38,742 nt of DNA from a virus. Shown here one piece after another: positions 37,122 to 38,742 of the stretch (position 1 is its first letter; each line of letters opens with the position of its first letter). The stretch lies in the IMG/VR virus record IMGVR_UViG_3300034375_010063, positions 1 to 38,742 of that record. One strand, given 5' to 3'. Made by a program: the position numbers and the translations under genes. The notes under the pieces are model-generated. The model was not told the DNA's origin and searched no databases. It saw only the letters and a program-made list of their open reading frames with translations.

Positions 37122-37487
37122 ATGAGTCTTTACAACACACTACATTCACTTATACTTGAAGTAGCTAATAGGGACGAAGTCCAAAAAGCTATAAAAAATA
37201 GAAATACTTGTGTTATTTACTATGAAGGTGATACAGTAAATAATCCTGGATGGAGAACTATTGAACCAGTAGCTGCAGGTACAACTAAAAAAAATAATCC
37301 AGTTGTTAGAGCTTGGCAGACCGAAGGGGCCACAGATACTGAAGTACCTGGTTGGAAATTTTTTAGATTAGATAGGGTTAGAAATTGGAATCCTACAACT
37401 GAAAAGTTTAATCAACCTAGACCAAACTACAATCCTAATGGTGACAAAAGTATGAACCAAGTATGGATTAATGCAAAATTTGATTAA
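37122..37487 (+). CDS. WYL-like domain protein with short N-terminal tag
   Basis: A 121-residue protein. After an N-terminal helix (SLYNTLHSLILEVANRDEV), residues about 23-95 have a WYL-domain pattern: IKNRNTCVIYYEGD, WRTIEPVAAGTTKKNNPVVR, AWQTEGATD, and WKFFRLDRVRNW. WYL domains bind ligands, often nucleic acid or nucleotides, and in bacterial regulators sit behind a DNA-binding domain; none is present here. The domain stands alone in a row of virion-type genes. The next gene starts on the base after its stop. Confidence 0.6.
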   Translation: MSLYNTLHSLILEVANRDEVQKAIKNRNTCVIYYEGDTVNNPGWRTIEPVAAGTTKKNNPVVRAWQTEGATDTEVPGWKFFRLDRVRNWNPTTEKFNQPRPNYNPNGDKSMNQVWINAKFD

Positions 37488-38123
37488 ATGAAAAATTTAG
37501 AACAATCGTTATTGAACGCTAAAAAATTTATGGAACACGATGCCATGAATAAAAATCGTGAGGGAATTAGAACAAATAGAAATATTCAAACAGAATCTAT
37601 TAATATACCAACACAACTTAATCAATCAACAAACATGTCTGTACCTACTTCTAGGACACCAAACATGAACCCAAAATCAAATATGAGTAAAGAATCCATT
37701 ATGAATTCTAAATTACCAGATGCCATAAAAAAAGCTATGATTGAAACACCAATACCAGACGTTAGTCCAACACCAACATTATCGGAATCATTTATAGACC
37801 AAGTAAGTAAAAAAATGAATTCTGAAGAATATAGTATAGAAAATATGAGAAGTACTAGTAATAGTAACCTTAGAGAAACAACACAAAGAAAAGTTAATGT
37901 GCCGACAAGTAATAATTATGATGACCCAATACCACCATTATTTCAAGAACCACAAGTAGATACAAATTCCTTAAAGGAAACTATTAAAGAGTGTATTAGA
38001 GAACTTATGAATGAAGAAAATTTATTAATTGAATCTAAGAATATTAATGAAAATTTACAAATTAGAGTGGGTAATAAAATTTTTAGTGGTAACATTAAAT
38101 CAATAAAGTCTGTAAAAAAGTGA
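37488..38123 (+). CDS. Low-complexity protein, possibly head- or scaffold-associated
   Basis: A 211-residue Asn/Ser/Met-rich, largely disordered protein. It begins with a helix (MKNLEQSLLNAKKFMEHDAM), contains Pro/Thr-rich stretches (IPDVSPTPTLSESF), and ends with an amphipathic helix (NSLKETIKECIRELMNEENL) and a short beta tail (LQIRVGNKIFSGNI). Such a layout is common in scaffold or internal virion proteins, but no family is recognised. It abuts the WYL-like gene and its stop lies directly beside the TnpB relic. Confidence 0.5.
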   Translation: MKNLEQSLLNAKKFMEHDAMNKNREGIRTNRNIQTESINIPTQLNQSTNMSVPTSRTPNMNPKSNMSKESIMNSKLPDAIKKAMIETPIPDVSPTPTLSESFIDQVSKKMNSEEYSIENMRSTSNSNLRETTQRKVNVPTSNNYDDPIPPLFQEPQVDTNSLKETIKECIRELMNEENLLIESKNINENLQIRVGNKIFSGNIKSIKSVKK

Positions 38124-38124
38124 A

Positions 38125-38238
38125 CTACCCAACCACTAAAGATGGTTGGGCTTCAGGAATCATAGACTCACCTAGTGGCAACGCCTCCTCCTGTTTTTGT
38201 TTAATTTCCGATTCTATTCCATAACCAGACAATATATT
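38125..38238 (-). pseudogene. TnpB (IS200/IS605) C-terminal relic and right-end hairpin
   Basis: On the minus strand 37 codons run open from an in-frame TAA to the stop TAG at 38127-38125 and encode SGYGIESEIKQKQEEALPLG then ESMIPEAQPSLVVG. This is the pattern at the extreme C-terminus of Bacteroidota TnpB proteins of IS200/IS605 elements. The last codons contain an 8-bp hairpin CCCAACCA / TGGTTGGG, as the right ends of these elements do. The base composition is visibly more GC-rich than the surroundings. No TnpB catalytic core, TnpA or left end is present, so the remnant is about 110 bases. In intact elements this region also encodes the 3' part of the omega RNA. The call rests on pattern memory. 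Confidence 0.55.
38128..38150. repeat. 8-bp hairpin, IS605 right-end type
   Basis: CCCAACCA (38128-38135) pairs perfectly with TGGTTGGG (38143-38150) around a 7-base loop. No T-run follows on either strand, so it is not a good intrinsic terminator. CTACCC...CTAAAG...GGTTGGGCTTC is the layout at the right ends of IS200/IS605 elements, where the hairpin is bound by the Y1 transposase. Confidence 0.6.
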
Positions 38239-38302
38239 TTAAATCAAGGTTAAAAATCGTTTTTTTTTTTATTTGATAGATATTTATATTAAAAATATAA
38301 TT

Positions 38303-38742
38303 ATGAAAAAAGTAGTAAGACTAACTGAATCAGAATTAATAAGAATAGTAAAGAGGGTTATTAATGAACAATCTGATACTAAATTAACACCTGAAGAAAT
38401 AAAATCATTGAATATGTTTTTATCCTATATGCACCCAAAAGGAGATAATGGTACCTGGAAACAACTCAATTCGACTTCATCATCTGTTGTTGTTAAACTT
38501 CAACCTAACGCTCGAATTGCAAACTTAGGTGGTTTTGATATTAAAAAACCTTTATCTTGGGAGTTTTATAAGGACGGTGAAAAGTTAGAATATGGAAAGG
38601 GGGTACCTGAAGGTGCAGGAACATTTGAGATTTATAAATCTCAAGGAGCGTTATTTTATAGTGTTTTTTACCCATCTAAGTTATTACAGAAAGATGAAAA
38701 ATTTATTGGAAATGAAAAAAAAGCACTTCAGTTGTTCAATAA
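38303..38742 (+). CDS. Hypothetical protein with N-terminal tag (3' end outside window)
   Basis: ATG 38303 opens a frame that is still open at the right edge (146 codons). After MKKVVR comes LTESELIRIVKRVINE, an N-terminal helix ending in (L/I)xE tripeptides like capsid-targeting tags. The rest (SSSVVVKLQPNARIANLGGF, LSWEFYKDGEKLEYGKGVP) is beta-type and unrecognised. TATTTATATTAAAAA at 38281-38295 lies 14 bases (from the TATTTATA core) before the ATG. Confidence 0.6.
   Translation, partial: MKKVVRLTESELIRIVKRVINEQSDTKLTPEEIKSLNMFLSYMHPKGDNGTWKQLNSTSSSVVVKLQPNARIANLGGFDIKKPLSWEFYKDGEKLEYGKGVPEGAGTFEIYKSQGALFYSVFYPSKLLQKDEKFIGNEKKALQLFN

Follow-up and report, generated by a model that had tools for sequence, protein, structure and literature searches.

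A TnpB relic in a large phage is probably the right part of a core-deleted, passenger-bearing IS200/IS605-family element

What does the 3′ end of a tnpB gene stand for when it is found in a phage genome without the rest of the gene? The question is raised by a 38,742-nt viral stretch (the whole of IMG/VR record IMGVR_UViG_3300034375_010063, hereafter the window), near the end of which a phage gene is followed by an islet of about 120 nt. A sequence-only reading had recognized in this islet, on the minus strand, the last residues of a TnpB-like protein with an IS200/IS605 right end (RE), and had raised the possibility of a stand-alone guide RNA (reRNA or omega RNA) that borrows TnpB supplied elsewhere. 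The islet is real and larger than first noted. It is very probably the core-deleted right part of a passenger-bearing IS200/IS605-family element residing in a large phage, which from its tail sheath, tail tube and baseplate genes is contractile-tailed. This reading draws directly on homology, the remnants of two genes, a target motif, the layout of intact relatives and the open reading frames (ORFs) restored when the element is removed from them.

Identity, extent and insertion site of the islet

The minus-strand ORF 38125–38238 translates into 37 residues, NILSGYGIESEIKQKQEEALPLGESMIPEAQPSLVVG followed by a stop, with a C-terminus reading ...EEALPLGESMIPEAQPSLVVG. The 119 nt from 38120 to 38238 match the RE-bearing tnpB 3′ ends of other viral contigs with 94–97% identity and E values down to 2e-53, so that both the proposed tnpB relic and its expected similarity to IS605 right ends are borne out. 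The intact TnpB proteins of the matching contigs carry the Pfam domains PF01385, PF07282 and PF12323, and in these proteins the C-terminal sequence is almost the same as the 37 residues of the window. The 37-residue piece itself gave no relevant match in Pfam, and the covariance search for omega RNA that had been suggested matched no Rfam family over 37400–38742, the piece being a very short one; comparison of the islet with phages and plasmids by BLASTN gave no islet match. The subterminal hairpin of IS200/IS605 right ends is present, is the same in close copies with the exception of L058, and lies in a 120-nt segment that folds better than shuffled sequences (z = −2.8). Only four substitutions separate the relic from the corresponding region of the intact copy L035, too few to judge its age or the selection acting on it.

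The limits first given to the islet (38125 and 38240) are both displaced. The RE reaches 38120, and beyond the tnpB remnant the plus strand at 38231–38253 reads AATATATTTTAAATCAAGGTTAA, the end of the divergent Y1 transposase gene tnpA, so that the element continues past 38240; the next gene is probably part of it as well. The full-length tnpA of relatives corresponds to PF01797 (E = 1.9e-33). Since only the last ~6 codons of this Y1 (HUH) transposase remain in the window, the element is described as a derivative of IS200/IS605 and not as an autonomous member. TnpB, which is an accessory protein of the family and is not needed for transposition, is likewise reduced to ~37 C-terminal residues, and a search of the 38.7-kb contig gave no PF07282 match. 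A reversed tnpA tail beside a tnpB tail is what the divergent arrangement of the two genes leads one to expect. As read from the sequence, the islet would be the product of one internal deletion of about 1.4 kb within a larger element, with its junction in a short microhomology (Table 1). L034/L032 have undergone an independent core deletion at a different microhomology (AAAACATC), and retain both ends.

IS200/IS605 elements characteristically insert 3′ of one short motif, and this feature too is recognizable. In all five homologues of the gene 37488–38123 whose ends were read, TTTAT lies on the minus strand across the TAA stop codon, at exactly the predicted position, and the same motif precedes the copies of the left end (LE). 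The element would thus have inserted beside this TTTAT, where the GTGAAC of the RE would turn AAA TAA into AAG TGA, a change that leaves the encoded protein as it was; the L035 insertion, in which TTA TAA became TTG TGA, reads in parallel. The earlier statement that the bases past the RE belong to the 3′ end of this gene holds. Downstream of the gene, near relatives have a terminator-like hairpin and then another gene, with no gene of the type that follows the islet in the window (MKKVVRL-type, see below). In a 194-kb close relative the same scan found neither tnpB, LE or true RE nor such a gene; one 'RE' line there is a chance hairpin. In the window, positions 37122–37487 encode a small protein with a WYL-domain match slightly under the curated cut-off (E = 2e-4) and 63–93% identity across 14 related phage loci.

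Table 1. Features of the window around the islet, and one protein-less element of another contig
Feature	Position	Strand	Remarks
Flanking phage gene	37488–38123	+	last codon AAG, stop TGA completed by the end of the element (AAA TAA in relatives)
Would-be guide flank, TTTTTTACAGACTTTATTGA	38100–38119	−	end of gene 37488–38123
RE terminus, ...TAGTTCAC	ends at 38120	−	
tnpB 3′ remnant with RE	38120–38235	−	last ~36–37 codons; 94–97% nt identity, copy alignment, folds
Stop codon TAG of tnpB remnant	38127–38125	−	
RE hairpin	38127–38151	−	10-bp stem, 5-nt loop
Putative deletion junction, 5-bp microhomology AATAT	38231–38235	.	common to the tnpA and tnpB 3′ regions, read from the sequence
tnpA 3′ remnant, last codons YILNQG and stop	38231–38253	+	same as the tnpA ends in L026, L035 and L050
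Promoter-like TTGATA-17-TATAAT for passenger gene	38273–38301	+	overlaps gene-start motif ATATTTATA
Probable passenger (cargo) gene, MKKVVRLTESELIRIVKRVINEQ...	38303–38740	+	open at contig end
Conserved 22-residue N-terminal module	38303–38368	+	capsid-targeting-sequence-like
230–240-bp element, copy L382	18670–18909 of contig IMGVR_UViG_3300032315_001292		

Intact relatives and the passenger gene

Intact elements (2242 bp in L026, 2213 bp in L035 and 2186 bp in L050) are ordered as TTTAT, LE hairpin, passenger gene, divergent tnpA, tnpB with its reRNA scaffold, RE hairpin and TTCAC. Their true left end reads TTTAT followed directly by ATAACTCCACCGAAAAACCCACAAATCTTTAGTTTGTGGGATG. The LE hairpin was seen in L026, L034, L035, L050, L245, L249 and L252; in L026, L035/L245, L050, L252 and L249 it lies, as seen from tnpA, beyond a small phage-type gene, and in L034 the same slot is occupied by a longer gene. 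TTTAT directly precedes each of the 26 LE copies with a full hairpin, a count in which many copies represent one site in several contigs. Placement of the LE between passenger and tnpA was favoured at first, the sequence there being common to all copies, and was ruled out by the finding of TTTAT and the hairpin beyond the passenger and by the joining of the flanks. Indeed, when everything from LE to RE is removed in silico, the flanks in L050 rejoin into a 43-codon ORF, and in L035 the end of one phage gene comes to lie a few nucleotides from the start of the next. Such restoration of phage ORFs indicates that the passenger belongs to the mobile unit in these relatives. For a natural empty site of L035, which was also sought, no close relative was found.

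The gene 38303–38740 of the window occupies the slot that the small phage-type genes fill in the relatives, and its position suggests that it probably lies inside the element. The LE would then be located off the contig, which ends within the passenger gene and so leaves it out of sight. Six passengers share the N-terminus MKKVVRLTESDLxRIVKRVIxE and only these first ~22 residues: BLASTP alignments among them cover residues 1 to 22–31, extending to 47 in one pair, and Pfam gave no credible match for five. At 45 viral loci the MKKVVRL-type module is found on otherwise different proteins. By this resemblance to short propeptide-like N-termini borne by unrelated proteins, as in T4, and by its modularity, the passenger looks like a capsid-packaged protein, and it is probably what matters to the phage today. 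The motif ATATTTATA that accompanies its putative promoter occurs near other gene starts (TATTTAT within 60 nt upstream in 14 of the 28 listed window genes) and is probably a phage promoter or leader signal. Over-representation was also noted for TATAAATA, with 22 occurrences in the window on either strand for 12.4 expected.

As to hosts, close bacterial relatives of tnpB are few: in a one-phylum sample of 395 genomes built around a Polaribacter genome, 9 reach an E value of 1e-60, with 50% as the best identity, for which reason this tnpB subfamily seems phage-borne. Matches of a 15-mer RE pattern in genome contigs, among those listed, are spread over many phyla and were not used for host placement. 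The element appears adapted to large contractile-tailed phages, the hosts of which are probably Bacteroidota.

The guide RNA scaffold, protein-less relatives and rival explanations

The reRNA has been described as about 150 nt covering the tnpB 3′ end and the RE, with about 16 nt of the flank as guide (PMC8612924). Of this stretch, 116 nt remain in the window; they are predicted to fold into three stems, in which 35 of the 36 pairs comparable with L035 are kept and one is broken. A wider comparison is offered by L059, the TnpB of which is about 52% identical in protein: of 39 scaffold pairs, 6 show double-compensatory and 6 one-sided compatible changes and 4 are broken relative to L035. These compensatory changes show that the family conserves a structured RNA. 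The identification of the segment as an reRNA scaffold, made from the tnpB 3′ end and the RE, was correct, and the scaffold is nearly complete.

Protein-less forms are found in other phage contigs. An element of 230–240 bp consists of TTTAT, LE hairpin, complete scaffold and RE without any protein gene and is present at four distinct sites (L382/G025, L365, L377 and the L379 group); two copies (L365 and L391) share one contig, and one contig with the element also holds its likely TnpB parent. The copies have one deletion junction in common, which implies that the element multiplied after gene loss. Minimal forms of ~48 bp, in which the tip of the LE is fused to a single RE hairpin with TTTAT before it, are found in L064, L066, L030, L232 and L239; those of L064, L066, L232 and L239 suggest that the ends should suffice for transposition alone. 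That the 230–240-bp element still has about 160 nt of scaffold hints at a use, without proving it. Several further arrangements were observed. Two more protein-less families (L369 with L375, and L374/L378) have a tnpB 3′ scaffold behind non-coding sequence. In L011/L023 and L058, tnpB 3′ relics lie inside GIY-YIG-type endonuclease-like genes, with frames that join in L011/L023; domestication by in-frame fusion was considered there and rejected, since the apparent rest of the GIY-YIG gene resumes past the RE, leaving a relic inside that gene. Finally, L004 and L060 have tnpB with an RE and no intact tnpA, and in L004 only a few bases lie between tnpB and its phage neighbours on either side, while TTTAT stands immediately ahead of the tnpB start codon, an arrangement that would suit movement by homing and not by TnpA.

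Could the window locus itself be a guide RNA element? A minus-strand transcript would then run through 38120 into the gene 37488–38123 and, with TnpB from a co-infecting phage or the host, cut insert-free copies of the site, so spreading the element with its passenger. The nearly whole scaffold, its structural conservation with respect to L059 and the occurrence of the 230–240-bp family at four sites, in one contig together with its likely TnpB parent, speak for such a function. Against it, the deletion took away the tnpB start along with the ATATTTATA motif belonging to it, and a search for a promoter into the relic found none, the only promoter-like site pointing to the passenger; the loss of the natural tnpB promoter makes transcription of the scaffold unlikely. 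No tnpB was found in the contig, where its search had been recommended, or in 14 related phage records. The would-be guide fits the empty sites of sampled relatives poorly beyond the first bases, and the four substitutions from L035 are uninformative on selection. Current guide function is thus unlikely, given the deleted promoter and the contig without tnpB, and the stand-alone element as a whole is very unlikely at this locus, where the end of tnpA is kept and a single deletion appears to be the origin. The idea of an reRNA retained without TnpB is not supported here and fits the separate 230–240-bp family of other phages better.

It is quite unlikely that the islet is an inert remnant beside an ordinary MKKVVRL gene unrelated to any transposon. 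Related phages commonly have such genes with no LE or RE nearby, and no LE is visible in the window; yet five other copies have the LE hairpin just beyond a gene of this type and tnpA just before it, and relatives lack the gene at this site. An assembly error that attached the last 622 bases to the phage contig would be in keeping with the position of the element at the extreme contig end and with the presumably repeated nature of such elements, but the join is base-exact: it coincides with the RE end and with the TTTAT site that five homologues predict, and a stop codon is restored, which makes a chimera highly improbable on the sequence evidence. The core-deleted, passenger-bearing element remains the preferred reading. 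A deletion between the AATAT repeats near both 3′ ends would later have removed nearly all of tnpA and tnpB, leaving behind the right end, the passenger gene, nearly the whole scaffold and presumably the left end. The element today is most likely non-autonomous or dead, and could move only if a related TnpA acted in trans on both ends. A broader proposal, which we regard as unlikely, is that IS605 elements in large phages have an exchangeable slot for capsid-packaged proteins, and that protein-less derivatives keeping the scaffold (the passenger-bearing form of the window and the 240-bp family) persist and spread with TnpA and TnpB borrowed in trans and so serve phage effectors as RNA-guided homing cassettes.

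Relation to known systems

As an idea, the favouring of carriers by a guide directed against the insert-free site resembles the TnpB-driven gene drive of insertion sequences, which was shown with TnpB on plasmids and not with phages or protein-less derivatives (PMC11870625). The passenger module recalls the T4 capsid-targeting sequences, N-terminal propeptides of 10–19 residues by which unrelated proteins are directed into the head and which are later removed: as in the T4 internal proteins, a short N-terminal module is borne by otherwise unrelated proteins (PMC9026906). Unlike them, the passenger module has about 22 residues and another sequence. It ends in I-x-E, in resemblance to a gp21-type cleavage site. 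In the literature searched, no IS605 passenger slot filled by varied phage genes with one propeptide-like N-terminus was found. Such a slot with a common N-terminus could explain how phages trade injected proteins, and the protein-less families with full scaffold offer a clean test of reRNA action in trans; it is the passenger slot and the protein-less, guide-bearing family that deserve further attention.

Core-deleted IS605 elements are already known, and the decay of the window relic is ordinary. Haloquadratum walsbyi contains core-deleted IS605-type transposons and PATEs, including 52-bp forms made of the termini only (PMC3119063). As there, tnpA and tnpB are divergent, the deletion is internal and short C-terminal remnants of both genes persist, and the 52-bp forms resemble the ~48-bp forms of L064, L066, L232 and L239 (PMC3119063). 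PATEs are terminal-only IS605 derivatives that lack a transposase gene, are too short to encode one and have a palindrome close to each end; of these traits, the window shows the lack of a transposase and the RE palindrome, with the passenger probably included and the LE presumably beyond the contig end. In contrast to the H. walsbyi elements, the family described here resides in phages and has a passenger gene between LE and tnpA, and its reRNA scaffold is nearly complete. With ISDra2 of Deinococcus radiodurans, the family shares LE and RE, a Y1 TnpA, TnpB, a 5-nt motif kept 5′ of the element, and a scaffold made of the tnpB 3′ end and RE with a guide taken from the flank (PMC8612924); it differs by TTTAT in place of TTGAT, by the loss of tnpA and tnpB in the window, and by the presence of a passenger gene.
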